Assembly (NCBI RefSeq): GCF_001427105.1
Contig: NZ_LMGI01000001.1
Span: 496,001-560,000 of the forward strand
Length of the DNA stretch: 64,000 nt
Direction of reading: 5' to 3'
DNA from: Sphingopyxis sp. Root154
Lineage (GTDB): Bacteria; Pseudomonadota; Alphaproteobacteria; Sphingomonadales; Sphingomonadaceae
Shown one piece after another: positions 3,380 through 62,631 of the stretch (the stretch's first letter is position 1; every line of letters begins with the position of its first letter). Position numbers and translations under genes: made by a program. A model generated the notes under the pieces. That model saw nothing but the letters and a program-made list of their open reading frames with translations. It ran no database searches and was not told the origin of the DNA.

Positions 3380-3458
3380 TACCGCGACTTACGCTAACGC
3401 GCTTGCCCTCACAGCGAAAATTGATAACGTTCCCATAAATCAAAATGGGGATGAGGCC

Positions 3459-43596: not shown

Positions 43597-44934
43597 ATGG
43601 CTGCCGATACCGTGCCCACCACCGAGGTCGAACGCGACGCCCGCGCCCTCCATGGCGCCGACGAACCGGGGGCACACCGCATCGACCCCGCGGAGATCGC
43701 GATCGGCGTCATCATTGGTCGCACGTCCGAATTCTTCGACTTCTTCGTCTATGCGATCGCGTCGGTGCTGGTGTTTCCGAAGCTCGTCTTCCCGCACCTC
43801 GACCCGCTGACGGGCACGCTCTGGTCGTTCGCGATCTTCGCCCTCGCCTTCGTCGCGCGCCCGGTCGGCACGATCATCTTTACCGCGATCGACCGCGCCT
43901 ATGGCCGCGGCGCCAAGTTGACCGTCGCGCTGTTCCTTCTCGGCGGCTCGACCGCGGCGATCGCCTTTGTCCCCAGCTATGAATCGGCCGGGATCGGCGC
44001 CGCGCTCCTCCTCGCGCTGTTCCGCATGGGTCAGGGCGTCGCGCTCGGCGGCTCGTGGGACGGCCTCGCCTCGCTGCTCGCACTCAATGCGCCCGAGAAC
44101 AGGCGCGGCTGGTACGCGATGATCCCGCAGCTCGGCGCGCCGCTCGGCCTCATCGTCGCCAGCCTGCTCTTCATGTTCCTGATTTCGGCGCTCCCTGCCG
44201 AGGATTTCCTCGCCTGGGGCTGGCGCTATCCCTTCTTCGTCGCCTTTGCGATCAACGTCGTCGCGCTGTTCGCGCGGCTGCGAATCGTCGTGACCCCCGA
44301 ATATGCCGAATTGTTCGAGAACCGCGCGCTCCAGCCCGCGCCGCTGCTCGAAACGGTACGGTCCGAATGGAAGACGATCGTCATCGGCACCTTCGCCCCG
44401 CTCGCCAGCTTCGCGATGTTCCACATGGTCACCGTCTATCCGCTGTCATGGGTGTTCCTGTTCACCGACGAAAGCCCCGTCCGATTCCTGATGATCGAGG
44501 CGATCGCCGCGGTCATCGGCATCGGGACGATCATCGCCTCGGGCGCGCTCGCCGACCGCTTCGGCCGCCGCACGCTTCTCGCGGCCACCGCCGCCGCGAT
44601 CGCGGCATTCAGCGGCTTCGCGCCGCAATTGCTCGACGCCGGCGAAATCGGCGAGGCGACCTTCATGATCCTCGGCTTCGCGCTGCTCGGCCTGTCGTTC
44701 GGCCAGTCGTCGGGCGCGCTCTCGTCGAACTTCCAGCCGCGCCACCGCTACACCGGTTCGGCCTTCACCTCTGACCTCGCCTGGTTGTTCGGCGCCGGTT
44801 TCGCGCCGATGGTCGCGCTCTGGCTCTCCAGCCAGTTCGGGTTGATCGCCGCGGGCGCCTATCTGCTTTCGGGCGCGATCGGCACGCTCGTCGCACTCTG
44901 GCTCAACCGCGAACTCGCCAGCACGATCGGCTAA
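43597..44934 (+). CDS. MFS transporter, metabolite:H+ symporter (MHS)-like
   Basis: 445 residues with about 12 membrane helices. IIGRTSEFFDFFVYAIAS in helix 1, ARPVGTIIF and DRAYGRGAKLTVALFLLGGSTAAIAFVP form the first MFS signature. The second copy is ALADRFGRRTLL. It resembles the ProP/ShiA/KgtP group that imports organic acids or betaines with protons. Substrate unknown. Divergent from cyoA. Confidence 0.87.
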   Translation: MAADTVPTTEVERDARALHGADEPGAHRIDPAEIAIGVIIGRTSEFFDFFVYAIASVLVFPKLVFPHLDPLTGTLWSFAIFALAFVARPVGTIIFTAIDRAYGRGAKLTVALFLLGGSTAAIAFVPSYESAGIGAALLLALFRMGQGVALGGSWDGLASLLALNAPENRRGWYAMIPQLGAPLGLIVASLLFMFLISALPAEDFLAWGWRYPFFVAFAINVVALFARLRIVVTPEYAELFENRALQPAPLLETVRSEWKTIVIGTFAPLASFAMFHMVTVYPLSWVFLFTDESPVRFLMIEAIAAVIGIGTIIASGALADRFGRRTLLAATAAAIAAFSGFAPQLLDAGEIGEATFMILGFALLGLSFGQSSGALSSNFQPRHRYTGSAFTSDLAWLFGAGFAPMVALWLSSQFGLIAAGAYLLSGAIGTLVALWLNRELASTIG

Positions 44935-45441: not shown

Positions 45442-45777
45442 GCGACGCGTCCCACACGGCGTCATCGCCGATGGCACAATGCGTTCGGCAACCGACGCCA
45501 TACCGGGCGCCGGGATGCCCACCGGGAGGCGCTTGCTCCCTGTAAATATGCGGGTGACCTGCCCCGCCTCATCGCACGATACGGACAATTCCGCGAGAAG
45601 CGGAACGTACGCAGCGGGCCATCGGATATGAACTCGGTGAAAGGCGCGCGCTTGGCCTCGCGCGTCTCGAACACCTTTCTAAAATGAAATGAAATTATTT
45701 AAGTTGTCATATGACTGATAATTGATAATGTGAGTCGGGAATGGCGCATCAAGCGCTGACGACGGGAGAATGGGCGC
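45442..45777. other. 336-bp intergenic region before the GntR regulator, with candidate operator
   Basis: No gene is convincing here. The proximal half is GC-rich like its surroundings. The last ~100 bp are clearly AT-rich (around AAATGAAATGAAATTATTTAA) and contain the perfect palindrome GTCATATGAC (45706-45715). This is probably the promoter-operator of the downstream regulator. Confidence 0.6.
45706..45715. promoter_or_regulatory. Palindrome GTCATATGAC, candidate GntR-family operator
   Basis: Perfect 10-base palindrome within an AT-rich promoter, 62 bp before the regulator's GTG. Its CATATGA core recurs as TATATGA twice before the TonB receptor gene (46609 and 46631), suggesting one regulator acts at both. 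Confidence 0.45.
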
Positions 45778-46551
45778 GTGAGGCAGGGCGGGACCGACGC
45801 TGTGCATGGCGATCGGCTGGCGCTTCGCAAGCGGCGGCCGTCGCTGGTCGACGCCGCTTGCGAACATATCCGCGCAAGCATCCTGTCCGGCGCGCACTGG
45901 CCCGGCTCGCAGCTTCCGACCGAGGCCGAATTCGTCGACGTGCTCGGCGTGAGCCGGACGGTCGTCCGCGAAGCGGTCGCCCGCCTCGCCGCTGCGGGAT
46001 TGGTCGAGGCACGACAGGGCAAAGGCCTCTTCGTCAGCGAGACCGCCCGCTATCAGGCATTCCAGATCACGCGCGAAGAGGTCGAAAATCTCAGCGACGT
46101 GATCCAGTTGCTCGAGCTGCGGCTCAGCGTCGAAACCGAAATGGCTGCGCTGGCCGCCGAACGGCGCAGCGAGGTCGATGTGATGAGCATGCGCCAGCAA
46201 CTCAAGGCGCTTGGCGAGGCGGCGATCGGCCTTGAGGATTCGGTCAAGGCCGACGTCGAGTTCCACAACGTCATCGCGCGGGCCAGCAAGAACACCTATT
46301 ACGCCAAACTGATCGATTTCCTGGGCGTCCGGCTGGTCCCGCCGCGCTCGCTCTATCTGCGTCAGGGGCAAAGCTATGTCGGCGCGCGGTACAAGGCGGT
46401 GATCAGCGAAGAGCATGAGGCGATCCTCGACGCGATCATCCGCCGTGATCCCGACGCCGCACGGGTGGCGGCGCGGAGCCATATGAGCAGCAGCCTCAAG
46501 CGGCACCGCGATTTGCAAGATTTCATGTCCTCGCACAGCCCAACGGGCTGA
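45778..46551 (+). CDS. GntR-family (FadR/FCD subfamily) transcriptional regulator
   Basis: 257 residues. The winged helix covers about 22-85 (GSQLPTEAEFVDVLGVSRTVVREAVARLAAAGLVEARQGKGLFV). The FCD ligand domain follows, with metal-site residues in DVEFHNVIARASKN and EEHEAILDAI. FCD regulators of this kind respond to sugar acids, uronates or other organic acids. The GTG start overlaps a tiny ATG frame (ATG GGC GCG TGA), which may couple translation. It sits upstream of the TonB receptor and is the likely regulator of the locus. Confidence 0.88.
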   Translation: MRQGGTDAVHGDRLALRKRRPSLVDAACEHIRASILSGAHWPGSQLPTEAEFVDVLGVSRTVVREAVARLAAAGLVEARQGKGLFVSETARYQAFQITREEVENLSDVIQLLELRLSVETEMAALAAERRSEVDVMSMRQQLKALGEAAIGLEDSVKADVEFHNVIARASKNTYYAKLIDFLGVRLVPPRSLYLRQGQSYVGARYKAVISEEHEAILDAIIRRDPDAARVAARSHMSSSLKRHRDLQDFMSSHSPTG

Positions 46552-46608
46552 ACCACCAACATCAATGACCTGAAGGACAACTCAGGCACCGCATTACGTC
46601 CAACAGAA

Positions 46609-46640
46609 TTATATGATCAATCTGCTTAACTTATATGATG
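46609..46640. promoter_or_regulatory. Twin TTATATGAT repeats upstream of the TonB receptor
   Basis: TTATATGAT at 46609 and again at 46631, 22 bp (about two helical turns) apart and ending 21 bp before the TTG start. The core resembles the palindrome before the GntR-type gene. Confidence 0.45.
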
Positions 46641-46659
46641 TCTTACAGGGAGAGGTCCA

Positions 46660-49443
46660 TTGAAGATTAGTCTTCGCGCTTCCGTGGCGCTGATTGCGCT
46701 CGCCAGCGGCGCACATATCGCAGAGGCGCAAACCGCGCCGGCGGCCGAACCGTCCGCAAATCAGTCAGCCGTGGCTACGGCGCCAAGTGATGCGCAGGAT
46801 GGCGAGGACATCGTCGTCACCGGCATCCGCCAGAGCCTTGCCCGCGCCGCCGAGATCAAGCGCGAGTCGACCGCAGTGGTCGATTCGATCGTCGCCGAGG
46901 ATATCGGCAAGCTTCCCGACATGACGACCGCGTCGGCGCTCCAGCGCGTGCCAGGGGTGCAGGTGGTTGTGGGCGGCAACAACGAAATCGTCGGCGCGCG
47001 CATTCGCGGCCTCGACGACATCATCACCACGCTCAACGGACGCGAGATTTTCACCGGTGTCGGTCGCGGCTTCTCGTTTCAGGATCTGCCGGCCGAAGCG
47101 CTTGCCGGCGTCGACGTCTACAAGTCCAATTCGGCCGAACGGCTCGAAGGCGGCGTGGCGGGCGGCGTCAATATGCGCCTGCGCCGCGCGCTCGACTTCA
47201 AGGAGCTGACGATCGCGGGCAGCGCGCGGGCGACCTATCTGCAGGAGGCCGGTTCAAAGAATACCTATAATCCGGCGGTAAGCCTGCTCGTCGCCAACCG
47301 CTGGGACGCAGGCGAAGGCGAGATCGCGGCGATGGCCAGCGTCTCCTATCAACGCAACAAATATGCCCGGCCGGTCGCGTGGAACGACTGGACACGCGCG
47401 ACCAGCGCCGGCCCCGCCGGCTCGCCCCAGAACCTGCACTCGCCCACCGGCTTCGCCGCGGCGATCGAATTCGGCAAATACGAACGCCCGCAGGCCAATT
47501 TCTCGCTCGAATGGGCGCCTGACACCGACACCAAAATCTATGTCGAAGGCCTGTTCGCCGGCTATCGTGGCGACGTCTATCAGGCACGCCCGACCTTCCG
47601 CGCCTTCACCGGCACGTCGTTTGAAGCGACCGCCGGCGATACCTGCGAAGATTTCGCGGTCGGACCCGACGGCTATTATTCGGGCAATGTGCGCAGCCCG
47701 ACCAATCCGACGGGCACCGGCACGATCCGCCAGCTGTGCAACGCCACCGGCTACACGGCGCGCAACCTCGAATATTATACCGCAACCGTCGCCAACAAGG
47801 CGCGCACCGACATCTATGTGATCGCCACCGGCTTCAACAAGGAGATCGGCGCGCTCACCTGGAATACCGACATCTCCTATGAAACCTCGACCAACAGGAA
47901 CAACAGCTTTCGCGTCGATATAGGCAAGCGCATCGCCGAACTGGTCCAGGTCCGCGATAACAATCACGAGGTGCAGGCAACGATGCCCGGCAATCCCATG
48001 AACGACCCGGCCGGTCTGGCGTTCGTCAATGGCATGACCGAAGACATCAACCGTAGCCGCGGCACATTGTGGTCGGTCATGAGCGACGCCAAATACGACT
48101 TCGACGGGTTCCTCGACTATGTCCAGGCAGGCGTTCGCGTCGCGAGGCGCAAGGCTGGGTTCGAGCAGTATCTCGGCGGCCCGCCGGCACCCGGCGGTTC
48201 GTTCGCGACCCCGCTGGCCAGCGCCGGCCTCCCCACCGATATTCTGTCGCAGGCTCCCGGGGTGCCGCAAATGAATGACGGCGCATCCTTCCTGCAGATC
48301 GACCCAAGATATCTGACGCAGGAAGCGATCAAGCGGCAGCTGCGGACGCTATACCGCATCTCGCCGGATACGCCCGCCTTCGACCCGACGCGCGACTATG
48401 ATGCGCAGGAAAAAAGCTATGCCGGCTTCCTGCAGGCGGGATATAAATTCTCGCTGACCGATGCGATCTCGGTCGACGGCATGGTTGGCGCCCGCCTGAC
48501 CCGCACCGACCGCGACATCGCGGGGTCGGGCCGCGTGACCGATCCGGCGACGGGCACGTCGCGCGTCGTGCTGGTCAATCGGTCGACCAGCGACACGGAT
48601 CTGCTGCCCAACGCCAGCGCACGCATCGAGTTCGGTGGCGGCCTCCAGGCGCGTTTCAATTACTCGAAGACACTGTCGCGGCCCAGCTTCGGCCAGCTCA
48701 ACCCCGGCCTCAGCTATGTCGTCTCTTACGTCAACACGATCCAGAACTCCGGATCGGGCGGCAACCCCGACCTCCGGCCGCAGAAGGCCGACAGCTTCGA
48801 TGCGTCGCTCGAATATTATTTCGGCCGCAGCAACTATGTCTCGGTGGTCGGCTTCTATCGCGACATCACCGACCGCATCATCAACGGGACCGAGGTCCGC
48901 ACGATCGACGGCCTGCAATATGTGATCTCGACCCCCCGCAACCTGGGTTCCGCCAAGATCAAGGGCGTCGAAGTGGGTGGCCAGCTGTTCCTCGACTTCC
49001 TTCCCGAAGGGCTCGATGGCGCGGGCGTGATCGGGAACTTCACAGTCATCGACAGCGAGGTGACGACCCCCGGCGACCGGCTTGAGGGCCTGCCGCTGCT
49101 CGGCGTCTCCAAATACAATTACAACATCGGCCTGATTTACGAGAAATACGGCATCTCGGCGCGGATGATCTACACCTATCGCTCCAAATATTTCGACGGC
49201 GATATTACCAATGGCCTCTCGCTCCGGCCGGTCTCGATCCCCGTGGGGCTCAACGGCATTCGCGCCGCGGGGCGACTCGACTTCGGCCTGAATTACGATG
49301 TGACGCCGAATATCACGGTCAGCCTCGCCGGCACGAACATCACCGGCCAGAAGACGCGCAACTTCGAATCGCGCGAGGATTTCGTCCGCGAAGTGCGGAA
49401 CGACGACACGACCTACTCGCTCGGCGTCCGCTTCAACTTCTGA
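46660..49443 (+). CDS. TonB-dependent receptor
   Basis: 927 residues from a TTG preceded by GGGAGAGG. The signal peptide ends near IAEAQT. The TonB box region reads DGEDIVVTGIRQSLARAAEIK. Then come the plug (IGKLPDMTTASALQRVPGVQV, VGARIRGLDDIITTLNGRE) and a barrel closing with ...SLGVRFNF. This is the Caulobacter/sphingomonad type of receptor that often imports oligosaccharides. It lacks an STN domain, so it is a transporter only. It is followed by the PHP-like enzyme after 43 bp. Confidence 0.93.
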   Translation: MKISLRASVALIALASGAHIAEAQTAPAAEPSANQSAVATAPSDAQDGEDIVVTGIRQSLARAAEIKRESTAVVDSIVAEDIGKLPDMTTASALQRVPGVQVVVGGNNEIVGARIRGLDDIITTLNGREIFTGVGRGFSFQDLPAEALAGVDVYKSNSAERLEGGVAGGVNMRLRRALDFKELTIAGSARATYLQEAGSKNTYNPAVSLLVANRWDAGEGEIAAMASVSYQRNKYARPVAWNDWTRATSAGPAGSPQNLHSPTGFAAAIEFGKYERPQANFSLEWAPDTDTKIYVEGLFAGYRGDVYQARPTFRAFTGTSFEATAGDTCEDFAVGPDGYYSGNVRSPTNPTGTGTIRQLCNATGYTARNLEYYTATVANKARTDIYVIATGFNKEIGALTWNTDISYETSTNRNNSFRVDIGKRIAELVQVRDNNHEVQATMPGNPMNDPAGLAFVNGMTEDINRSRGTLWSVMSDAKYDFDGFLDYVQAGVRVARRKAGFEQYLGGPPAPGGSFATPLASAGLPTDILSQAPGVPQMNDGASFLQIDPRYLTQEAIKRQLRTLYRISPDTPAFDPTRDYDAQEKSYAGFLQAGYKFSLTDAISVDGMVGARLTRTDRDIAGSGRVTDPATGTSRVVLVNRSTSDTDLLPNASARIEFGGGLQARFNYSKTLSRPSFGQLNPGLSYVVSYVNTIQNSGSGGNPDLRPQKADSFDASLEYYFGRSNYVSVVGFYRDITDRIINGTEVRTIDGLQYVISTPRNLGSAKIKGVEVGGQLFLDFLPEGLDGAGVIGNFTVIDSEVTTPGDRLEGLPLLGVSKYNYNIGLIYEKYGISARMIYTYRSKYFDGDITNGLSLRPVSIPVGLNGIRAAGRLDFGLNYDVTPNITVSLAGTNITGQKTRNFESREDFVREVRNDDTTYSLGVRFNF

Positions 49444-49486
49444 CCCCGATGACGGCACCGCGAATGACGAAAAACAGGAGGATGGT

Positions 49487-51643
49487 TTGAACAGGAAACG
49501 GATTTTCACCGCGCTCGCGCTGGCAACCGCGCTGACGGCGGGCAGCTTGGCGACAGCCGGCGCGGCGCACGCGCAGGGGGCCGCAACGGTTCTCAACGCG
49601 CCCGACAAGGCGCTGCCCGGCGACGTGCGCGTTGCGCGGACGCAGGACTCGGTGACGATCGACTGGCCCTCGGCGCAGGGCGAGCGCGCGCAGCTCGCTT
49701 TGTCGCTCGATCCCGGCAAGCCGCTGATCGAGGCGGTCTCGATCGCCGGCAAGACGGTGCTTGGCGGAATCGATCCGGCCGGCGTGGTCACCGTCGGCAC
49801 GCGCGATCTCAAAGAAGGCTGGACGGTCTTCTTCGACAATCCGCGGACACGGCCGTTCGAAAGCTTCCCGCTGACGCTGGCACGCAGCGACATCACCGTG
49901 CGCGCGGAGGGCGGCTATACCAAGGTGATCGTCGGCGGCGCGGCCGCCGGGCCGTTCTCCGGCACTTATCAATTCACGATCTATCCGGGCTCGCGGCTGG
50001 TGCGCGCATCGATGGTGATGGCCACGCAGCGCCCAGCCACCGCCTACACCTTCGATGCCGGGCTCAGCGTGGCATCCTCAGCCGCATTGCCGTGGCGCTC
50101 GATCGCCTTCACCGACACCGAAGATGCGATGGTGCGCAAGGAAGGCGATGCATCGCGCAAACCCGCGGTCTCGCCCAAGGTACGCGCCCGTATGATCGTC
50201 GCAGAGGGTGTCGCGGGCGGGTCGCTGGGCGTCGTCCCGCCGCCGCACCAATATTATTACCCGCTCGATTACGCCAACAACGACAATTCGGCATGGTATG
50301 GCAACGATTACCGCAACCTTGCCGGGCGCACGAGCTTCGGCGTGCGCCAGACGCTCGAGGGCGATCGGCGCTACGTGCCGTGGGTCAACGCCCCGCCGGG
50401 CACGACGCAGGACATGGGCGTGTTTCTGCTACCCGACAGTGGCGACGCCGCCAGCGTCACCAAGGCTGCGCTCGCCTATACCCGCGGCGACCGTTTCAAG
50501 GCGCTCGACGGGCACCGCACCTTCACCAGCCACTATCATGTCGAACACACCGAAGCCTTTCTGAACACGGCGCGGTTCCAGCAATCGACGGGCGTACCCG
50601 ACGGGCTGGAGTCCCCGGCCTTCGTCAAGCGCTTCAAGGACATGAACGTCGAGATCGTCCATCTCGCCGAGCTTCATCTCGGCCGCGAGGCGCTCGATCG
50701 CGCCGGCGACCGGCTGACCTTGCTCAAGACGATGCACGCGGAGACCGCGCGGCTGTCGGACGAAAAGCTGCTGCTGCTCCCGGGCGAGGAGCCCAACGTC
50801 CAGCTCGGCGGGCACTGGATCAGCTTCTTCCCCAAGCCGGTCTATTGGACGCTCGACCGCAAGGAGGGGCAGCCCTTCGTCGAAACCGATCCCAAGCTCG
50901 GCAAAATCTATCATGTCGGCTCGCAGGAGGATGTCCTGAAGCTGATGCAGGAAGAGAAGGGGCTGATGTGGACCGCGCATCCACGGATCAAGGGCTCGTA
51001 CGGCTTCCCCGACAAGCACAAGGACACACCCTTCTTCAAAAGCGACCGCTTCCTCGGCGGTGCGTGGAAGAATATGCCGTCGGACTATTCGCTGCCACGC
51101 CTCGGCACGCGGGTGCTCGACACGCTCGACGACATGAACAACTGGGCGGCGAAACCGTCCGAGCGCAAATTCGCCCCCGGCGAGGTCGACGTGTTTCAGA
51201 TCTCCGACGAGAGCGAGCTCTATGCGCATATGAACATCAACTATCTCCGGCTTGACGGGCCATTGCCGCGCTATTCCGACGGCTGGCAGGGCGTGCTCGA
51301 CGCGCTGCGCGGCGGCCGCTTCTTCACAACCACCGGCGAAGTGCTGATCCCCGAATTCACGATCGACGGCGCGAAGAGCGGCGAGGAAGCCGCATTCGGA
51401 CGCAACGCCGTGGTGCGGGCGAAGATCGAATGGACCTTCCCGCCCGCCTTCGCGGAGATCGTCAGCGGCGACGGCGCCAAGGTCTATCGCGAGCGCATCG
51501 ACCTGACCGGCGCCGCGCCCTTCGGCACGCGCGCGATCGAAAAGCGCATCGATCTCAGCGGCCGCAAATGGGCGCGCATCGAGGTGTGGGACGTTGCGAC
51601 GAACGGCGCCTACACGCCCCCGGTATTCCTGAAAGGGAAATAA
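49487..51643 (+). CDS. Exported PHP-like (CehA/McbA-type) metallohydrolase
   Basis: 718 residues from TTG, with AGGAGG just upstream. Signal peptide ends near AHAQG. Residues of about 35-330 are beta-rich without a motif I know. The second half holds PHP-type metal ligands: SHYHVEH (His349, His351, His354), [13 protein letters not shown] (Glu434-Glu435), GGH (His443) and WTAHPR (His498). A terminal [16 protein letters not shown] stretch is also seen in CehA/McbA-family proteins. Probably a periplasmic metal-dependent hydrolase of a phosphoester, carbamate or sugar-linked bond. Substrate unknown. An inverted repeat separates it from kduI. Confidence 0.72.
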
Positions 51644-51657
51644 GAACCTCCCCTGCC

Positions 51658-51697
51658 CGTGCAGTCGTCATCGCTTTCGCGCCCTGACGACTGCACG
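51658..51697 (+). terminator. 13-bp perfect stem-loop between the PHP-like gene and kduI
   Basis: CGTGCAGTCGTCA (51658-51670) and TGACGACTGCACG (51685-51697) around a 14-base loop, then TGGCCTTTTG. It lies 14 bp after a stop codon and 55 bp before kduI. The T-run is short, so partial termination or mRNA 3'-end protection is more likely than full stop. Confidence 0.6.
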
Positions 51698-51752
51698 TGG
51701 CCTTTTGAACCCGGAACGGTGCCGGCCGGCCCGGTCCTTCTTCGGAGCAGCC

Positions 51753-52595
51753 ATGTTCGATCGAACCTATTACGCCACCCATCCCGACATGATGGCGTGC
51801 GTGTCCAATGACGAATTGCGCGATCGCTATCTCATTCAGAATTTGTTCCGCCCCGACACATGCGTGCTCAACTATACGCATGCCGATCGGCTGGTAATCG
51901 GCGGCGTGCTGGTCGAGAGCGGGAGCGTCTGCCTGCCCGATCAATCGGAACCCGCGTCGGCGGCCGGCCACCCGTTCCTCGAGCGGCGCGAGCTTGGCAT
52001 TGTCAATGTCGGCCGCGCCGAAGGAACCGTGACCGTCGATGGCGAGGCGTTCCCGCTCGGCGCGAAGGACAGCCTCTACGTCACGATGGGCGCCAAAGAC
52101 GTCCGCTTCTCGGGCGATGGCGCGCGTTTCTACCTCGCCTCCTCGCCCGCCCACCGCGCCTTCGAGACGCGAAAGCTGCCGCTCGCCAGCGCCAAGATAC
52201 TCGAGCGCGGCAGCCTCAAGGAAGCGAACGACCGGACGATCCATCAGCTCGTCATCCCGGGCGTGTGCGACAGCGCGCAGCTGGCGATGGGCCTCACGAT
52301 CCTCAAGCCGGGAAGCGTGTGGAACACGATGCCGCCGCACGTGCACGAACGCCGGAGCGAGATTTATTTCTACTTCGATCTCGACGATCCCACGCAAGGC
52401 CGGGTGATGCACTTCATGGGTCAGGGCGACGCCACGCGTCATATCGTCATGGCCGACGGCGAGGCGGTGATCTCCCCGCCCTGGTCGATCCACATGGGCG
52501 CCGGCACCAGCGCCTACGCGTTCATCTGGGTCATGGCGGGCGAGAACCAGGACTATGACGACATGAACGTCCTCGACATCTGTCAGCTCGCCTAA
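51753..52595 (+). CDS. kduI: 5-dehydro-4-deoxy-D-glucuronate isomerase
   Basis: 280 residues. It isomerises 5-keto-4-deoxyuronate, the product of unsaturated uronate from pectin, alginate or glycosaminoglycan cleavage, to 3-deoxy-D-glycero-2,5-hexodiulosonate. Zinc ligands sit as in the E. coli enzyme: His196, His198 and Glu203 in [15 protein letters not shown], and His247 in PPWSIHMG. The start is [12 protein letters not shown] with CGGAG upstream. The next enzyme of the route, KduD, is not in this window. No signal peptide, so cytosolic. Confidence 0.94.
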
Positions 52596-52702
52596 CCTAC
52601 TGATATTTAACCGGTAATCTCCAGAAACGGCGAGCGACGGCCTTCAGGCGTCGCAGCGGAGGCGGATCGAGCGGAATTAAACAACCTGATTCAGCATCGC
52701 GG

Positions 52703-53320
52703 TTGACGGAAACATCGCGGTCGGGCCTCTTAGAGGGTGAGAGGAGCGAAACGACGGAACGCGAGGCGCTAGCCGAGTGGGTGGGACGCGAGATCCTGCC
52801 GCACGAACGCGACCTGCGGCTATGGCTGCAGCGACGGCTCGTCGCCGCGGCCGACGTGGAGGACATCGTGCAGGAATGTTATTGCCGCCTTGCCCAGCTC
52901 GATGACGTCGCGCACGTCGCGACGCCGCGCGCCTATCTGTTCACCATGGCGCGCAACCTGGCGCAGCGGCAGCGCAAGCATGCACGCGTCGTCCGGATCG
53001 AAGCGCTGGCGGAAACCTTCGATGCCGAAGCGGAAAGCGACCAGCTCTCGCCCGAGCGGTTCGCCGCGGCACGACAAGAGCTCGAACGCGTACAGGCGGC
53101 GCTCTCCACCCTGCCCGAGCGCGCCCGGCGGATTTTCCTCATGCGCCGGGTCGAAGGGCTGACCCAAAAGGAAATCGCGGCGGCGATGGGCGTGAGCGAG
53201 GCGGTGGTCGAGAATGATGCGAGCCGCAGCCTGCGCGCGATCCTGAAGCTGATCACCGAGCCGGAACCCGAACAGGGAAGATTGTCGGACGGAGGCGTTG
53301 CGCATGCGCGATCACGCTGA
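52703..53320 (+). CDS. ECF RNA polymerase sigma factor (FecI-type)
   Basis: About 205 residues from a TTG; the exact start is uncertain because no clear Shine-Dalgarno is visible. Region 2 includes ADVEDIVQECYCRLAQL and ATPRAYLFTMARNLA. Region 4 reads LPERARRIFLMRRVEGLTQKEIAAAMGVSEAVVENDASRSLRAI. The FecR-like gene overlaps its end by 17 bp, and an STN-domain receptor follows. That is the standard cell-surface signalling trio. Likely targets are the receptor and FAD oxidoreductase genes downstream. Confidence 0.9.
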   Translation: MTETSRSGLLEGERSETTEREALAEWVGREILPHERDLRLWLQRRLVAAADVEDIVQECYCRLAQLDDVAHVATPRAYLFTMARNLAQRQRKHARVVRIEALAETFDAEAESDQLSPERFAAARQELERVQAALSTLPERARRIFLMRRVEGLTQKEIAAAMGVSEAVVENDASRSLRAILKLITEPEPEQGRLSDGGVAHARSR

Positions 53321-54269
53321 AGAGGCCGCCGCCTGGGCACTGCGTCACCCGCTCGATGCGACCGGACGCGCCGAGCTCGAGGCATGGCTGGCACAGGATC
53401 GCCGCCACGCCGGTGCGCTGCTCCGCGCGCAGGCGGGATTGAGTGCGATCGACCGTGCGGTGGCAGAGCGCGCGGTGACAGCGGGCGAGCCTATCGATGT
53501 TGCGTGCGCTCTTCCCCCCGCGACCGCGCCGACGCGGCGGTGGCTGCTCGCGGGCGGTGCCGGCGCGATGGCGGCGGGGATTGCCGGGATCGTCGCCTGG
53601 CCGCACCTGATGGTCGAGCGCGTAACGACCGCACGCGGCGAGATCAGGCGGCTGCCGCTCGCTGACGGCTCGGTTGCCACGATCGACACCAGCAGCAGTT
53701 TGCGCGTCGCCATGGCGGGCGACGCCCGCCGCATCGCACTCCAGGAAGGGCAGGCGTGGTTTCAGGTCGCCAAGGATCGCAAGCGCCCCTTTGTCGTCGA
53801 TGCCGGCATCGCGCAGGTGCGCGCGGTCGGCACCGCCTTCTCGGTGCGCCGCACAGGCAGCGGCGTGCGCGTCGCCGTCACCGAAGGCAGGGTGGCCGCC
53901 TGGGCGACGGACAGCGGCGGGACGATGACGATCCTGGAGGCGGGGCAATATGCCACCTTCCGGCCCGGCGCGGCCGCGCCCGAAATCGCGACCGAGCCCG
54001 CCGCGATCGAGCGATCGCTGGCGTGGCGCAGCGGCGAGATCTCGCTGGAAAACGAGACGCTGGGCAGCGCGGTCGAACAATTCAACCGATACAATCGCCA
54101 GCAACTGGTGATCGCGGACCCCGATCTGGCGAGTGCGCGGCTCGTGGGGCTTTTCCAGGTCGACCGCCCCGCCGATTTCGCTGCGACGTTGACCGCCTCG
54201 CTCGACGTCACCGTCACCACCACCCCGGGCGAGATCCGGCTGGCGCGAAAAAAGAACCCGCTACCCTGA
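53304..54269 (+). CDS. FecR-family anti-sigma regulator
   Basis: 321 residues from ATG 53304, eight bases after GGAGG; a TTG two codons earlier is too close to that signal. The cytosolic N-terminus (EEAAAWALRHPLDATGRAELEAWLAQDRRHAGAL) is the sigma-binding DUF4880-type domain. One membrane helix follows (about residues 82-102). The periplasmic FecR domain has TARGEIRRLPLADGSVATIDTSSSLRV and GQAWFQVAKDRKRPFVVDAG. It passes receptor state to the sigma factor. Confidence 0.9.
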   Translation: MRDHAEEAAAWALRHPLDATGRAELEAWLAQDRRHAGALLRAQAGLSAIDRAVAERAVTAGEPIDVACALPPATAPTRRWLLAGGAGAMAAGIAGIVAWPHLMVERVTTARGEIRRLPLADGSVATIDTSSSLRVAMAGDARRIALQEGQAWFQVAKDRKRPFVVDAGIAQVRAVGTAFSVRRTGSGVRVAVTEGRVAAWATDSGGTMTILEAGQYATFRPGAAAPEIATEPAAIERSLAWRSGEISLENETLGSAVEQFNRYNRQQLVIADPDLASARLVGLFQVDRPADFAATLTASLDVTVTTTPGEIRLARKKNPLP

Positions 54270-54347
54270 CGGAAACCCGCCGGCGCGGACTCTTGGTATC
54301 GAGAGCGCACCGGCAATAGGGCGCCCGATGAAAAGGGGAGGATCGAA

Positions 54348-57269
54348 TTGACGCACGCGCGTATTCATCTGCTGGGAACCGCCGCCGCAATCATATGCGG
54401 CATGACCTCGCCCGCCGAGGCGGCCGCACAGGTCCGCCGTTTCGACGTTCCTGCCCAGGCCGCGCAGACCGGCATCCCGATGTTCGCGCATCAGGCCGGC
54501 ATCCAGATCCTCGCGCCCGGGGCCATTACCGAAGGCTTGCGGGTCAATGGCGTTAAGGGGTCGATGGACGTAGCCGCGGCGCTGCGACTGCTTCTGTCCG
54601 GCACCGACCTGATCCCGGTCAAGGTCGGCAACGCGTTCGTGCTGAAGCGCCGAACGGCGGTCGCGCAGGCAAGCCTGGCGGAGGCCCCCGCGCAACCAGC
54701 TTCCGGCCCTGCGGCCGACACGCAAGCCGGCGAGGACATCGTCGTCACCGGCATCCGCGCGTCGCTTCAGGAGTCGATCAACGCCAAGCGCGAAGCACAG
54801 TCGATCGTCGACGTCATCACCGCGCAGGACATCGGCAAGATGCCCGATCAGAATGTCGCGGAAGCGATGAGCCGCGTGACGGGCGTCCAGATCAGCCGGC
54901 GCGAGGGCGATGGATCGAACTTCACCGTGCGCGGGATTTCGCAGAACCGGCTCGAGATCAACGGCCGCAATTATATCGGGCCGGGCAACGGCGGCAACGC
55001 GGCGCTGGAATCGGTGAGCCCCGAGATCATCTCCTCGATCCTCGTCATCAAGTCGCCCACCGCCGACATGCCCGAGGGTGCGCTCGGTGCGACGGTGAAC
55101 CTCAAGACCAAGCGCCCGCTCGACCTCAAGGACTTCGTCGCCGCCGGACGGATCCAGGGCGCCTATGCCGATCAGGCCGACCATGTCGGCTATCGCGGCT
55201 CGGCGATGATTTCGAAGAGTTTCGGCGAGCGTTTCGGCCTGCTCGCCAGCATCGCCTATTCGGACACGAAGACGCAGGGTCATTCGTTCGATGCCGGCGG
55301 CTGGACACAGACCGGCGCGATCGACGGCAATGGCGACGGCGTGGACGATCCGGGCCTGTATCGCCCGAACCGCTTCATGGCGCGTATCTTCGATCGCGCC
55401 GAACAGCGGCTGACGGTGAATGGCACCGCGCAGTGGCGCCCGACCGACACGCTCGAGATCATCCTCGACGCGACCTTCAACCACCTCAAGCGCCAGCGGA
55501 ACAGCGTCAATTACCAGGTGCTGTTCAACAACAACGACACCGATGCGACCGTAAACGAGAGCAACACGGTCGTCGCCGGCACCTTCACCGGCGTGACCGT
55601 CCGGCCGCTGATCTATGACGAGCCGACCGACCTCAAATCGACCCTGCTCGGCGGATCGGTGAAATGGGAGGGTGACCGCGCGCGCGTGAGCTTCGACATG
55701 TCCTATGCCCATGGCAAGGGCAGCGACGGCGGGCCGGGTGCGTCGTTCGCTTATGTGGTCGTGCCGCGCACGGGCAACACCGCGAACGCGAGCTATGATT
55801 TCAGGGCCGGAAATCCGGTGCCGGATCTCTCGATCGACGCCAATTTCAACCCGAACGACCCCTCGCAATATCAGCTGCTGTCGATCTTCGACTATGACGC
55901 GGTGACCGAGAACAAAGGTTATGACGGGCGGCTGGACTGGGAATATCAGACCGAGTGGGGCATCCTGTCCGCAGTGGAGGCCGGGGTGCGCTACGAGCGC
56001 GTCGAACTGCTCGCCGCCGATCCGCAGAACCTGCCCGTCGCGGCCAGCCTGCTCGCGGCCGGCGACGCGAACGGCGACGGCATCCTGACCGTCGACGAGC
56101 TACCCGGGCTCAACTACGGCAAGGATTATGGCGCCTTCTTCCCCGGCGCCGACGGCGCCTTTCCCCGCGATCTCCTCGGCGGCACGCTCGACAAATGGAC
56201 CGCGCGCGACGGGCTGGGCCTTGCAAGGCCCGATCCCTACGACACGACAATCACCGTCGGCCCGACCTCGATCAAGGACGTCAAGCAGGATACGCTCGGC
56301 GCTTATGTGAAAGGGAATTTCGAAGGCGACATCAGGGGCCTGCATTACGCGGGAAACGCCGGCGTGCGCTATGTCAGCACAGCGCGCGCGACAAAGGGAT
56401 TTCTGTCGCCGACCGCCACGACCATGGTCAAGGCCGATTCCAGCTATTGGCTCCCCAGCGCGAATCTATCGATCGACTTCAACGACGATCTGACGCTGCG
56501 CCTGGCCGCGGCGCAGGTCGTTGCCAGGCCGGGCCTCAATCAGGTCAGCGCGAGCTTCGTGCCCAACACCGTCAACATGACCGGCTCGCGCGGAAATCCC
56601 AATCTCCGGCCGTTCGAGGCGACGCAATATGACGCCACGCTCGAATGGTATTTCGCGCCTTCGAGTTCGCTTACCGGTGCGGTCTTTTACAAGAAGGTCG
56701 ATTCTTTCACGATGAACACCGTGACCCGCGAGTTCATTCCCGGCTTTTCCGAGCGGTTCGGGCTGTTCGACATATCGCAGCCGCAAAATGGTGAGGATGG
56801 CGACATCAAGGGCTTCGAGCTCGCCTATCAGCAAGCCTTCCGTTTCCTGCCCGCGCCGTTCGACAATCTCGGTATCCAGGCGAACTACACCTATGTCGAC
56901 AGCTCGACGCCGCTGGTCGATGCGATCACCGGCGAGCGACTTCCGCTCCCCGGCCTGTCGCGCGATAGCTACACATTGATCGGCTATTATGAGGACGACA
57001 TCTTCTCGGTGCGCGCGGCCTATACCTACCGCAGCAAATATCTGAACTCGGTCGGCGGCGCGGCCAGCGGCGGCAACACCTATATCTCCGCGCGCGGTCA
57101 GCTCGACGCATCGGCGCAGATCAATCTGACGCCCAATCTGCGCCTGACCTTCGAGGGCATCAATCTGACCAAGGCGATCGACCGCCAGTATCTGGGCGAA
57201 CCCGATCGCCTGACGTTCAGCGCACAGGAAGATCGCCGGATCTTCTTCGGCGTGGCCGCCAGCTTCTGA
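54348..57269 (+). CDS. TonB-dependent receptor with N-terminal STN signalling domain
   Basis: 973 residues from a TTG after GGGGAGGATCGAA. After the signal peptide (TSPAEAAAQ) comes an STN domain (RFDVPAQAAQTGIPMFAHQAGIQI ... LLSGTDLIPVKVGNAFVLKR, about 27-105), which contacts FecR. TonB box GEDIVVTGIRASLQESINAK follows, then plug IGKMPDQNVAEAMSRVTGVQISRREGDGSNFTVRGISQNRLEINGR, and a barrel ending ...FFGVAASF. The spacing and wording match sphingomonad receptors annotated for sugar or glycoconjugate uptake. It should both import and sense its ligand. Confidence 0.93.
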   Translation: MTHARIHLLGTAAAIICGMTSPAEAAAQVRRFDVPAQAAQTGIPMFAHQAGIQILAPGAITEGLRVNGVKGSMDVAAALRLLLSGTDLIPVKVGNAFVLKRRTAVAQASLAEAPAQPASGPAADTQAGEDIVVTGIRASLQESINAKREAQSIVDVITAQDIGKMPDQNVAEAMSRVTGVQISRREGDGSNFTVRGISQNRLEINGRNYIGPGNGGNAALESVSPEIISSILVIKSPTADMPEGALGATVNLKTKRPLDLKDFVAAGRIQGAYADQADHVGYRGSAMISKSFGERFGLLASIAYSDTKTQGHSFDAGGWTQTGAIDGNGDGVDDPGLYRPNRFMARIFDRAEQRLTVNGTAQWRPTDTLEIILDATFNHLKRQRNSVNYQVLFNNNDTDATVNESNTVVAGTFTGVTVRPLIYDEPTDLKSTLLGGSVKWEGDRARVSFDMSYAHGKGSDGGPGASFAYVVVPRTGNTANASYDFRAGNPVPDLSIDANFNPNDPSQYQLLSIFDYDAVTENKGYDGRLDWEYQTEWGILSAVEAGVRYERVELLAADPQNLPVAASLLAAGDANGDGILTVDELPGLNYGKDYGAFFPGADGAFPRDLLGGTLDKWTARDGLGLARPDPYDTTITVGPTSIKDVKQDTLGAYVKGNFEGDIRGLHYAGNAGVRYVSTARATKGFLSPTATTMVKADSSYWLPSANLSIDFNDDLTLRLAAAQVVARPGLNQVSASFVPNTVNMTGSRGNPNLRPFEATQYDATLEWYFAPSSSLTGAVFYKKVDSFTMNTVTREFIPGFSERFGLFDISQPQNGEDGDIKGFELAYQQAFRFLPAPFDNLGIQANYTYVDSSTPLVDAITGERLPLPGLSRDSYTLIGYYEDDIFSVRAAYTYRSKYLNSVGGAASGGNTYISARGQLDASAQINLTPNLRLTFEGINLTKAIDRQYLGEPDRLTFSAQEDRRIFFGVAASF

Positions 57270-57283
57270 CCAAGAGGATCACC

Positions 57284-58930
57284 ATGGATCGCAAGCGCTT
57301 CCGCGCCCTCGCCACCCTGTCCGCCTGGCTTATGCCGATGGCGGCCATCCCCTCACCCGTGGCCGCCCAGCCGCATCCACGCGCCGATATCGTCATCTAT
57401 GGCTGCACCTCGGGCGGGGTCGTCGCCGCGATCGAGGCGCGCCGCCTCGGCCGGTCGGTGCTGCTGGTGTGCCGCGAAGACTATCTTGGCGGCATGTCGG
57501 CCAACGGCCTCGGCTGGTCCGACACCGGCAACCATCGCGCGATCGGCGGCCTGTCGCTCGAATTCTACCGCAAGGTGAAGCGATATTATGACGACCCGTC
57601 GGTCTGGGTCCACGCCCCGCGCCCCGCCCAGGCCGAGAATTTCGTCGACGGCGATGCGATGTGGCAGTTTGAGCCGAAGGTGGCCGAGCGCATCTTCGAG
57701 GATTGGGCAAAGCAGGCGGGCGTCACCATCGTGCGCAATCAGCCACTCGACCGGTCGAAGCGCGGCGTCGAGATGGACGGCAATCGCATCACCGCGTTCC
57801 GCTCTAAAACCGGGCAGCGTTTCGAGGGAAAGATCTTCATCGACGCGACCTATGAGGGCGACCTGATGGCCGGCGCGGGCATCAGTTTCACCGTCGGGCG
57901 TGAGGGCAACGCGACCTATGGCGAGACGCTCAACGGCGTCCAGCTCGCGAACACCACCAACCACCAGTTCACGCTCGACATCGACCCGTATCGCGTGCCC
58001 GGCGATCCCTCGAGCGGGCTGGTGCCGCGGATCAGCGCCGAACGCCCGGCCCGCGACGGCACCGCCGACCGCAAGATCCAGGCCTATACCTATCGCATGT
58101 GCCTGACCGACGTGCCAGCGAACCGCGTGCCCTTCCCCAAGCCCGCAGGCTATGACGCGAGCCAGTACATGCTGCTCAAGCGCTATATGGACGCCGGCTA
58201 TCGCGACTATTTCCGGAAGTTCGACCGTATCCCCAACGGCAAGACCGACACGAACAATTTCGGCGCCTTCTCGTTCGACAATATCGGCATGAACTATGGT
58301 TATCCCGAGGGCACCGATGCCGATCGCGCCGCGATCGCGCGCGAGCACACGACTTATCAGCAAGGACTGCTGTGGTTCATGGCGAACGACCCCGGCGTGC
58401 CCGCCGAGACCCGCGCGGAAATGTCGAAATGGGGCCTCTGCAAGGACGAGTTTACCGGCACCGGCCACTGGCCGCGCGAAATGTATGTGCGTGAGGCACG
58501 CCGCATGGTCTCCGACTTCGTGATGGCTGAGCCGCATTTGCGCGGCACCAAACCGACGCCGCGGCCGGTCGGCATGGGCTCGTACAACATGGATTCGCAT
58601 AATGTGCAGCGGATCGTCGACGCACGCGGCTTCGCGCGCAACGAGGGCAATATCGAGATCAGCCCCGGTCGCGCCTATCCGATCAGCTATGACGCGATCG
58701 TGCCGAAGAAACGCGAAGCCGCGAACCTGCTGGTGCCGGTCGCGCTGTCGGCGTCGCATATCGCCTATGGCTCGATCCGGATGGAGCCGGTGTTCATGAT
58801 CCTCGGCCAGTCCGCGGCCGCAGCGTCATCGATCGCAATCGACGACCAGATCGCCGTGCAAGACGTCGACTACGACAAGCTTCGCGCAAGACTGACATCG
58901 GAAGGGCAGATTCTCGAACTTGCGCACTGA
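57284..58930 (+). CDS. Exported FAD-dependent oxidoreductase (FAD_oxidored type)
   Basis: 548 residues. A signal-like N-terminus (MAAIPSPVAAQP) precedes the FAD-binding fold ADIVIYGCTSGGVVAAIEARRLGRSVLLV (G40, G44, G45). Landmarks are EDYLGGMSANGLGWSD, FIDATYEGDLMAGAGISFTVGREG, and a late SHIAYGSIRMEPVFMILGQSAAAAS stretch that closes the FAD site. Such proteins occur beside carbohydrate uptake genes and are often labelled xanthan-lyase-like without evidence. 14 bp after the receptor, so co-transcribed. It may oxidise the imported glycan or its aglycone in the periplasm. Confidence 0.8.
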   Translation: MDRKRFRALATLSAWLMPMAAIPSPVAAQPHPRADIVIYGCTSGGVVAAIEARRLGRSVLLVCREDYLGGMSANGLGWSDTGNHRAIGGLSLEFYRKVKRYYDDPSVWVHAPRPAQAENFVDGDAMWQFEPKVAERIFEDWAKQAGVTIVRNQPLDRSKRGVEMDGNRITAFRSKTGQRFEGKIFIDATYEGDLMAGAGISFTVGREGNATYGETLNGVQLANTTNHQFTLDIDPYRVPGDPSSGLVPRISAERPARDGTADRKIQAYTYRMCLTDVPANRVPFPKPAGYDASQYMLLKRYMDAGYRDYFRKFDRIPNGKTDTNNFGAFSFDNIGMNYGYPEGTDADRAAIAREHTTYQQGLLWFMANDPGVPAETRAEMSKWGLCKDEFTGTGHWPREMYVREARRMVSDFVMAEPHLRGTKPTPRPVGMGSYNMDSHNVQRIVDARGFARNEGNIEISPGRAYPISYDAIVPKKREAANLLVPVALSASHIAYGSIRMEPVFMILGQSAAAASSIAIDDQIAVQDVDYDKLRARLTSEGQILELAH

Positions 58931-59836: not shown

Positions 59837-61180
59837 ATGGAAAAGGCGGAACGTGCCGTTGATTCGAGCGGCAGCGATATCGATCTGTCGGCATTCTGGA
59901 TGCCCTTTACCGACAATCGCGCCTTCAAGCGTCAGCCGCGTTTGCTGTCGCGCGCGGCGGGCATGTATTATTACACCCCCGAAGGCCGGGCCATTCTCGA
60001 CAGCACGGCCGGTCTCTGGTGCGTCAACGCCGGCCATTGCCATCCCCGGATCGTCGATGCGATCCGCGCGGAAGCGGGGACGCTCGATTTCGCGCCAACT
60101 TTCCAGCTCGGGCATCCGATAGCTTTTCGGTGCGCAGATGCAGTCGCGCGCATCATGCCGCCCGGCCTCGACCGGATATTCTTCACCAATTCCGGGTCGG
60201 AGTCCGCCGACACGGCGCTCAAGATCGCGCTCGCCTATCAGCGGGCCGTCGGCCAGACCGGGCGCTATCGGCTCATCGGCCGGCAACGCGGCTATCACGG
60301 CACCAATTTCGGCGGCATGTCGGTGGGCGGAATCGGCGGCAACCGGTCGGGCTTCGCGTCCCAGGTTTGGGGCGTCGACCATCTCTCGCACACATACCGC
60401 GCCAGCGCGGCCTTTACGCGCGGCCTGCCACCCGAACAGCCGGACCTGGCACAAGAGCTTGAGCAAATCATCGCCCTGCATGGGGCCGAAACGATTGCCG
60501 CGCTCATTGTCGAGCCGCTCGCCGGATCGACGGGCGTATTGGTGCCGCCACGCGGATATCTGCAACAAGTGCGGGAGATCACGGAGCGGCACGGAATCCT
60601 GTTGATCTTCGATGAGGTCATTACCGGCTTCGGGCGGCTGGGCGCCGCGACGGCGGCTGAATATTTCGGGGTCGTGCCAGACATCATCACCACCGCGAAG
60701 GGACTGACGAGCGGCACGGTTCCGATGGGCGCGGTGATCGCCTCACGCAAGGTGCACGACGCCGTAATCGGCGCCGCTTCGGGACGCGGCATAGAGTTTA
60801 TGCACGGCTATACCTATTCGGGCCACCCGCTCGCCGCAGCGGCCGCCCTCGCCACGTTGGAGGTTTATGCCGAGGAGGCGCTCTTCGAGCGCGCGGCCAC
60901 GATATCGCCCCGTTTCGAAAATGCCATCCACGCGCTTCGCGACGCGCCGCATGTCACCGATATCCGTACTCTCGGCCTCGTGGCGGGCATCGAACTGGCA
61001 CCGCGCCCGGGAGAGCCCGGCATTCGCGCGATGGAAGCCTTTCATCGCTGCTTTGACGATGGCGTGCTGGTTCGCGTGACCGGTGACATCATTGCACTTT
61101 CGCCCCCGCTCACCGTCACCGACGCGCAAATCGACGAGACAGTCAGCACGATACGCGCGGCGCTCGAGGCCGTGGCATGA
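59837..61180 (+). CDS. Omega-amino acid (beta-alanine):pyruvate aminotransferase
   Basis: 447-residue class III, PLP-dependent transaminase. FWMPFTDNRAFKRQPRLLSRAAGMYYYTPEGR and DSTAGLWCVNAGHCHPRIVDA are close to the Pseudomonas omega-APT/BauA N-terminus. The cofactor site has NSGSESADTALKIA, IFDEVITGFGR and the Schiff-base Lys288 in TTAKGLTSGTVPMGA. With the downstream permease and semialdehyde dehydrogenase, it most likely converts beta-alanine and pyruvate to malonate semialdehyde and alanine. The exact amine donor is inferred. ATGA overlap with the permease. Confidence 0.9.
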   Translation: MEKAERAVDSSGSDIDLSAFWMPFTDNRAFKRQPRLLSRAAGMYYYTPEGRAILDSTAGLWCVNAGHCHPRIVDAIRAEAGTLDFAPTFQLGHPIAFRCADAVARIMPPGLDRIFFTNSGSESADTALKIALAYQRAVGQTGRYRLIGRQRGYHGTNFGGMSVGGIGGNRSGFASQVWGVDHLSHTYRASAAFTRGLPPEQPDLAQELEQIIALHGAETIAALIVEPLAGSTGVLVPPRGYLQQVREITERHGILLIFDEVITGFGRLGAATAAEYFGVVPDIITTAKGLTSGTVPMGAVIASRKVHDAVIGAASGRGIEFMHGYTYSGHPLAAAAALATLEVYAEEALFERAATISPRFENAIHALRDAPHVTDIRTLGLVAGIELAPRPGEPGIRAMEAFHRCFDDGVLVRVTGDIIALSPPLTVTDAQIDETVSTIRAALEAVA

Positions 61181-62631
61181 TCGAGCCTGCCGCCGTCAAA
61201 GCGGTTGGGGCTCTCGAAGATCAGGCCGCGCAGCATAGCACTCAGGAGCCGGCTCTCGCGCGCAGTCTCTCAGCGCGTCACGTCGCGATGATCGCGATCG
61301 GCGGCATTATTGGCGCAGGGCTGTTTGTCGGCAGCAGCACCGCGATTGCCACAGCCGGGCCGGCCGTCGTCGTCAGCTATCTGCTGGCGGGGCTGATCGT
61401 GTTGCTGGTGATGCGGATGATAAGCGAGATGGCGATGGCGGTGCCCGGACGGCAGTCTTTTGCCGATTTCGCCCGGCTGGAGCTGGGCAACTGGGCCGGC
61501 TTCATGTCGGGATGGCTCTACTGGTATTTCTGGGTGGTGGTCGTGGCGATCGAGGCGGTCGCAGGCGCGGCGATCATCAACCAGTGGCTGCCGGGCTTTG
61601 CCATATGGGAAATCGGCGTCGTGCTGATGGCGGCGCTGACGGGCGTCAACCTGATGTCCGCCAGGGCCTATGGCGAATTCGAATTCTGGTTCTCGACGCT
61701 GAAGGTCATCGCGATTCTGGTCTTCATTGTGGTCACCGCCAGCTATGCCATGGGCTTCGGTGCGCCGTCCGGTTCGACATTCGGCAACCTCGTCGATCAT
61801 GGCGGCTTTGCCCCCCATGGCTGGGGCGCGGTAATTGCCGGCGTGACGAGCGTCATCTTCTCGCTGACCGGCGCCGAAATCGCTACCATTGCAGCGGCCG
61901 AGTCCAATGCCGGCGAACGGACGATCGCACGGATGGGCGCGAGCGTGGCGCTGCGCATCCTGATATTCTATATCCTCTCGATCATCCTGATCGTGTCGGT
62001 GGTGCCGTGGGACAGCATCGAGCCCGGCTATTCGCCTTTCGCCAGCGCAATGGCGGTCGTCGGCATCCCCCATGCTGAAACGATCGCGAATCTGGTCGTT
62101 CTCATCGCGGTGCTATCCTGCCTGAACTCGGGCCTTTATGTTACGTCGCGCGTCGTCTTTTCGCTTGCGGCGCACCGTGAAGCGCCGGCCGCACTGGCGC
62201 GGATCAATGCCCGCGGCGTCCCGACCCGGGCGATCCTGCTGGGCAGCCTGTTCAGCTATGGCGCGCTCGCCGCATCGGTGCTTTCGCCGGCTGTCGTCTT
62301 CAGCTTTCTCGTCAATGCGTCGGGCGTCATCATGATCGCGCTCTACCTGATGGTGGCCGTCGCGCAGCTGCGCCTGCGCGCGCGGTTCGAGCGCGACGCG
62401 CCCGAAAAGCTGAAACTGCGCATGTGGTTCCATCCATGGGGCAGCCTCTTCGCCATCCTTGCCATGATCGGCGTGATCGTCGCGATGGCGATTACCCCCG
62501 GTCTCGCCATCCAGCTTTATACAAGTCTGTTCACCATCGCGGTCGTCGGCCTGGCCTATCTGGCCGTGAACGCCCGGCGCAGCGTCGCCGACCCTTCCAC
62601 CCCGATTTCTGAAAGCGAGCGTCCATCGTGA
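61177..62631 (+). CDS. APC-family amino acid permease (GABA/beta-alanine permease-like)
   Basis: 484 residues with 12 predicted membrane helices. The first one carries MIAIGGIIGAGLFVGSSTAIATAGPAVVVSYLLAGLIV, the APC/AAT signature, followed by RMISEMAMAVPGRQSFADFA. It resembles GabP and BauD-type importers. Its start overlaps the aminotransferase stop and its stop overlaps the dehydrogenase start, so uptake and catabolism are coupled. Confidence 0.88.
   Translation: MIEPAAVKAVGALEDQAAQHSTQEPALARSLSARHVAMIAIGGIIGAGLFVGSSTAIATAGPAVVVSYLLAGLIVLLVMRMISEMAMAVPGRQSFADFARLELGNWAGFMSGWLYWYFWVVVVAIEAVAGAAIINQWLPGFAIWEIGVVLMAALTGVNLMSARAYGEFEFWFSTLKVIAILVFIVVTASYAMGFGAPSGSTFGNLVDHGGFAPHGWGAVIAGVTSVIFSLTGAEIATIAAAESNAGERTIARMGASVALRILIFYILSIILIVSVVPWDSIEPGYSPFASAMAVVGIPHAETIANLVVLIAVLSCLNSGLYVTSRVVFSLAAHREAPAALARINARGVPTRAILLGSLFSYGALAASVLSPAVVFSFLVNASGVIMIALYLMVAVAQLRLRARFERDAPEKLKLRMWFHPWGSLFAILAMIGVIVAMAITPGLAIQLYTSLFTIAVVGLAYLAVNARRSVADPSTPISESERPS

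Follow-up and report, generated by a model that had tools for sequence, protein, structure and literature searches.

A PHP-like protein encoded beside KduI in Sphingopyxis may take the place of GH88/GH105 in uronate release

Here we analyzed eight genes located at positions 45778-58930 of a 64,000-nucleotide stretch of the genome of Sphingopyxis sp. Root154 (positions 496,001 to 560,000 of contig NZ_LMGI01000001.1, referred to below as the window; the genome amounts to 4.73 Mb in five contigs). We consider it about an even call that the first four of these genes, which we call module A, form a self-contained uronate-harvesting unit in which a PHP-like protein (49487-51643) frees a terminal uronate, the step known from GH88/GH105 enzymes. 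Pfam and NCBIfam scans of the open reading frame (ORF) list confirmed the inventory given by an earlier sequence-only reading, with all eight genes on one strand (+) and including two TonB-dependent receptors, an extracytoplasmic function (ECF) sigma factor, FecR, a further regulator and kduI. That reading had also stated that the locus holds no lyase, glycosidase or KduD, and indeed none of the three matched any of the eight genes in these scans. Its view of the eight genes as one unit did not survive the comparison of genomes, as the locus is made of two neighbouring modules, A and B (the last four genes).

The PHP-like gene is present in 12 of 60 Sphingopyxis genomes and is rare in a wider sample of the family (3/298 genomes, counting that of the window). 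In the 11 other Sphingopyxis copies the GntR regulator and receptor 1 always precede the gene (11/11) and KduI follows it in nine, the module A kduI being 92-96 percent identical in 9/11 copies. The set formed by the ECF sigma factor, FecR, receptor and FAD (flavin adenine dinucleotide) oxidoreductase adjoins the PHP locus in 3/11 copies only (four Sphingopyxis genomes with that of the window). In genome G016 a distance of 300 kb separates module B from the PHP gene, and in four more genomes it is found apart, in part or whole, the separated copies being flanked by unrelated genes such as those for M20-type peptidases, an aminotransferase, other receptors, or PNPase and TruB. Genomes G016 and G392 are near-identical at the locus and were counted apart, as were Sphingomonas BK580, BK235 and S. 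citri, which seem close to one another. Because module B adjoins in so few copies and occurs apart in five genomes, we rejected a single eight-gene pathway: module B stands as an uptake unit of its own, of the FecIR type, with nothing tying it to uronate. The combination that the sequence-only reading had proposed to search for (kduI, PHP-like gene, FAD oxidoreductase and STN receptor) held in most Sphingopyxis copies for kduI and broke down for the FAD gene and STN receptor, and the case illustrates that reading raw sequence can fuse two adjacent uptake modules into one.

The neighbours of the PHP-like gene were compared in 24 distinct sphingomonad loci, covering ~8-10 kb on each side (less at contig ends) by single-query searches, with examples of the neighbour calls checked by Pfam or NCBIfam. 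The repeat loci L027, L028, L029, L034, L042 and L043, as well as G395 and G397, taken from size and coordinates to be the same genomes as G256 and G376, were left out as duplicates. A TonB receptor stands in 24/24 loci, GntR in 19/24, KduI in 18/24 and DUF4861 in 11/24, and less often we found an ExuT-like carrier and a sulfatase (5/24 each), KduD and an FAD oxidoreductase (3/24 each), GH127 (2/24) and ManD (1/24). GH88/105 was detected by these searches in 0/24 loci, and the constant clustering of lyases in relatives, which the sequence-only reading had named as telling against itself, was not seen. Its link to uronate was upheld by KduI and, in relatives, by KduD, the carrier, DUF4861 and the one ManD. 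KduD acts after KduI on the unsaturated uronate route, and the fullest set (DUF4861, carrier, GntR, receptor, PHP, KduI and KduD) occurs in Sphingomonas Leaf343, BK580 and S. citri. ExuT-like is our own label for the carrier, which scores best, though below cut-off (232 vs 395 bits), against TIGR00893, the D-galactonate transporter family; a homologue 46 percent identical lies by uxaC in the window genome. This uxaC (L111:17661-19243) reads as two overlapping ORFs, a possible frameshift. At L021:11340-12587 a mannonate dehydratase, ManD (734 vs 550 bits), is found directly after the PHP-like gene, where kduI is usual.

GH88/105 enzymes act on unsaturated uronyl ends, and it is through DUF4861 (PF16153) that we infer a link between them and the PHP-like enzyme. 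This domain is fused behind GH88/105 in 120/120 of the matches listed (429 were found, in a search limited to fusion-sized proteins; an example is L133:3957-6278), and behind the PHP-like protein in 4/120 homologues among the matches listed, as judged from the alignment. The fusion of L133, from Sphingomonas naasensis, adjoins a TonB receptor and a GH28-like ORF (L133:2680-6278), GH28 being a label given from reading of the sequence alone. We then compared 52 genomes, comprising the 25 distinct PHP-bearing ones and 27 of the 48 Sphingopyxis genomes that lack the PHP gene. In the latter 27, DUF4861 and GH88/105 occur in the identical 13 genomes, and among the 25 PHP-bearing genomes DUF4861 is found in 24 and GH88/105 in 19. 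Only five of the 52 genomes (G006, G376, G398, G401 and G403) hold DUF4861 without GH88/105, all of them PHP-bearing, and in the last four DUF4861 sits within the PHP locus. In the 11 Sphingopyxis carrying both, the coordinates show no GH88/105 gene closer than 100 kb to the PHP gene wherever the two share a contig. Since DUF4861 is shared by fusion and by co-occurrence, the PHP-like enzyme would stand where GH88/105 stands.

In the case of the PHP-like protein itself, no Pfam family was matched at E 0.001, PF07470 (GH88/105) included, and the CehA/McbA model NF038032 matches residues 421-716 at 36.6 bits, short of its family cut-off of 80. The AlphaFold2 model (mean predicted local distance difference test, pLDDT, 90.7) joins a super-sandwich half to a PHP half, with a predicted layout of signal peptide, super-sandwich (~35-340), PHP domain (~341-620) and C-terminal beta domain, and the modelled PHP half matches solved proteins of the PHP superfamily in structure. 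Residues H349, H351, E395, H397, E434, E435, H443, H498 and D568 are invariant in 60 sequences and are putative metal ligands, and F570 presumably occupies the place expected for the last PHP histidine. The sequence-only reading had asked for a structure prediction of the unassigned N-terminal half; the model suggests a super-sandwich fold for it, with the PL26 rhamnogalacturonan lyase ranking top in VIA-align. PL26 heads the VIA-align list only, the top Foldseek rows for the model being low-TM-score matches to GH38 mannosidases and YidC, and in the case of the DUF4861 fold PL26 is tied in VIA-align with GH65 and others (14.4 vs 14.1). Searches of the sequence against solved structures yielded one chance-level match for the single sequence and two with the profile, and no match to PL26. 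At least 1878 PHP-like homologues lie above threshold, with the named genomes belonging to at least five phyla. The protein is predicted to be metal-dependent and, from its signal-like N-terminus, exported, and the earlier suspicion that an unusual metallohydrolase is the likely cleaving enzyme gained support.

The sequence-only reading had also allowed for the missing enzymes to lie elsewhere in the genome, and was partly right in this. On another contig we found GH88/105, ManD and DUF4861 (C2:2015149-2018656) and, from C2:2069931, a second kduI (78 percent), kduD (405 vs 339 bits) and a kinase-like gene (260 vs 700 bits). Altronate dehydratase, a carrier and uxaC come after these genes, no more than 17 kb away. 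A second KduI is present in 12/12 PHP-bearing Sphingopyxis vs 25/48 others.

Gene order, conservation, fusions, co-occurrence and the predicted fold form the observed basis of the mechanism that we propose, and export, substrate, bond, domain roles and carrier are its conjectural part. Under this mechanism TonB receptor 1 would import uronate-ended oligosaccharides, from which the PHP-like enzyme, together with DUF4861 in genomes that have it, would cut off the terminal and probably unsaturated uronate in the periplasm. The super-sandwich domain would likely serve in substrate binding or elimination and the PHP metal site likely in hydrolysis, and DUF4861, whose gene is a neighbour in many relatives, would act as the partner of the enzyme. 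The 5-keto-4-deoxyuronate might then cross via the ExuT-like (hexuronate) carrier, and KduI followed by KduD (here supplied from the other contig) would convert it to 2-keto-3-deoxygluconate (KDG). A broader version, which we advance tentatively and think possible without being probable, is that the PHP-like proteins are a widespread enzyme family that has gone unrecognised, a metal-dependent super-sandwich/PHP alternative to GH88/GH105 for the release of unsaturated uronate with DUF4861. Such a family would span Sphingomonadales, Planctomycetota, Verrucomicrobiota, Bacteroidota and Armatimonadota and would explain why a KduI gene can stand with no known lyase or uronyl hydrolase next to it. 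If this is true, uronate pathways are being overlooked wherever the family is present, as predictions of glycan diet rest on lyase and GH88/105 genes, and DUF4861 would have a testable function, that of assisting two unrelated enzymes which release uronyl groups.

Several observations weigh against these proposals. KduI is missing from 6/24 sphingomonad loci, and in G020 the place of kduI beside the PHP gene is taken by ManD, which belongs to the route for saturated uronates. GH88/105 is retained in 19/25 PHP genomes, which precludes a simple replacement; in G006 DUF4861 lies on a different contig from the PHP gene and GH88/105 may be lost to an assembly gap, and G256 holds the PHP gene with no GH88/105, no DUF4861 and no KduI in the locus. 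The super-sandwich fold is common to many unrelated proteins, YidC and GH38 included. The lack of lyases on which the proposals draw covers PL1 and PL22, the two polysaccharide lyase (PL) families searched: in the five GH88/105-free DUF4861 genomes neither PL1 (14 genomes searched, with one match, in G016) nor PL22 (27 searched, with matches in five others) was found. Outside the sphingomonads we examined 61 loci, a good number of them on short contigs, from Planctomycetota, Verrucomicrobiota, Bacteroidota and other groups, in a search that divergent homologues would escape, and there KduI and DUF4861 are near in 2/61 loci each, a sulfatase in 16/61 and an FAD oxidoreductase in 2/61. The nearest neighbours in these loci are mixed: among the 99 compared, no Pfam family had more than four members, and no conserved operon was found. 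In two Verrucomicrobiota (L083:3178-4908 and L094:2282-4012) an FAD_oxidored gene lies directly after the PHP-like gene, unlike in most loci.

Part of this evidence could be accommodated if the PHP-like protein were an accessory deesterifying or dephosphorylating enzyme, with the PHP site removing an ester, carbamate or phosphodiester and another enzyme releasing the uronate. CehA/McbA hydrolases, to whose model the C-terminal 300 residues weakly match, split carbamate esters (PMC8292978), and sulfatases and esterases are common beside the homologues. However, we judge this explanation unlikely, given that no PL1 or PL22 that could perform the release was found in the four genomes with the full set but no GH88/105, and that DUF4861 is shared with GH88/105 via fusion. 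A further possibility is that the enzyme frees saturated glucuronate or galacturonate and that KduI acts as a hexuronate isomerase, as would fit E. coli KduI, which aids the conversion of both hexuronates (PMC3578941), and the ManD found at the usual place of kduI in L021. KduD, the step downstream of KduI on the unsaturated route, nevertheless follows in three loci, and GH88/105, the enzyme sharing DUF4861, has unsaturated ends as its substrate, making this account decidedly improbable.

It could also be that nothing new is involved, and that module A imports fragments for the GH88/105, KduI and KduD of the other contig, with the PHP-like protein being peripheral. The existence of that cluster and the persistence of GH88/105 in 19/25 PHP genomes agree with such a view, to which we nonetheless assign little credence, as in 9/11 other copies the PHP gene is accompanied by a dedicated second kduI, 92-96 percent identical, and four genomes hold the full set without GH88/105. 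The oxidation coupled to cleavage that the sequence-only reading had entertained, in which the FAD oxidoreductase oxidises the sugar before the PHP-like enzyme hydrolyses it, draws on the FAD orthologue being present in 5/60 Sphingopyxis, all five PHP-bearing (Fisher test, 0.00015, uncorrected for kinship), and on the FAD_oxidored gene beside the PHP gene in two Verrucomicrobiota loci among the 61 examined. The co-occurrence favours some link, in a figure that ignores kinship. Yet the FAD gene belongs to module B: it travels with a sigma factor, FecR and receptor of its own, and in five genomes it stands apart from the PHP gene. It is also missing from 7/12 PHP-bearing Sphingopyxis, so we regard this idea as very nearly discarded.

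Regarding the remaining genes of module A, the regulator (45778-46551) belongs to the GntR/FadR subfamily (GntR and FCD domains above Pfam cut-off), its NCBIfam neighbours NanR, UxuR and LldR each scoring far below cut-off, and TonB-dependent receptor 1 (46660-49443), supported by Pfam and by TIGR01782 (530 vs a cut-off of 310 bits), is devoid of STN. The KduI product (51753-52595) exceeded the equivalog model NF002091 (365.4 vs 250 bits) and matched solved KduI structures including 1xru (E 6.7e-72). The listed ORF begins with TTG at 51705; because KduI homology begins only at 51753, the ATG at that position is probably the true start. Between the PHP-like gene and kduI lies a strong hairpin followed by CCTTTT (51655-51701, + strand; -33.6 kcal/mol, z -8.4), which is conserved across ten aligned Sphingopyxis sequences and looks terminator-like or like an attenuator; being strong and conserved, it suggests that the expression of kduI may be uncoupled from, or lower than, that of its neighbour. 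A hairpin of different sequence occurs at the equivalent place in L039. Upstream of the regulator gene, the palindrome GTCATATGAC (45706-45715) has one match in the window, and it or a one-base variant precedes the regulator in other loci. It is a weak operator candidate, because 0.66 matches are expected by chance with one mismatch and the unrelated loci L064, L109 and L131 hold it too.

Module B comprises a FecI-like ECF sigma factor (52703-53320; Pfam and TIGR02937 above cut-off), a FecR-type anti-sigma regulator (53298-54269; PF04773, 73.7 vs 24 bits), receptor 2 with an STN domain slightly below cut-off (54348-57269; 27.4 vs 28.4 bits) and an FAD_oxidored protein with a signal-like N-terminus (57284-58930; PF12831, 333 bits), which is again found next to receptor 2 in five further loci. 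After a 906-base gap there follow in a row an AptA-type aminotransferase, an amino acid permease and an aldehyde dehydrogenase (59837-63998). A major facilitator superfamily metabolite:proton symporter (43597-44934) lies two genes upstream of module A and is there in 3/11 other Sphingopyxis copies, and a GH5-type glycoside hydrolase (3300-5180; PF00150, 104.8 bits), ~40 kb off, is the sole glycosidase among the window ORFs scanned.

In the limited literature set searched we found no paper on DUF4861, none in which a PHP domain is linked to uronic acid and to polysaccharide utilization, none on an unsaturated glucuronyl hydrolase with PHP and metal dependence, and none treating kduI, sulfatase and Sphingopyxis together. 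Among known systems, FecI-FecR-FecA resembles module B in having ECF sigma factor, FecR and STN-type receptor adjacent in a row, and differs in that an exported-type FAD oxidoreductase follows here. The exo-rhamnogalacturonan lyases of PL26 share the super-sandwich domain and rank top in VIA-align for the N-terminal half and DUF4861; unlike the PHP-like protein, to which they show no sequence match, they are not known to have a PHP domain. CehA/McbA proteins are alike in the C-terminal 300 residues, in a PHP fold with HxH and in having a second domain, but the match is below cut-off and neither the N-terminal super-sandwich nor the uronate setting is theirs. The ulvan protein P29_PDnc (PMC8511951), classed with PL37, and BcGDH (PMC12269599), formerly GH154 and classed with that family, are uronate dehydratases used with GH105/GH88. 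The likeness to module A is that a non-lyase protein makes a saturated uronyl end usable by the KduI route, whereas these enzymes need GH88/105 afterwards and four genomes here lack it. Homology of the PHP-like protein to P29_PDnc was dropped as an idea, since PL37 had served to predict P29_PDnc (PMC8511951). Closest in setting is the GH88/GH105 route, with DUF4861 beside or fused, an exported type of enzyme, KduI and KduD downstream and an ExuT-like carrier, but no sequence relation of its enzymes to the PHP-like protein was found (PF07470 gave no match), and for the latter a super-sandwich joined to a PHP fold is predicted.
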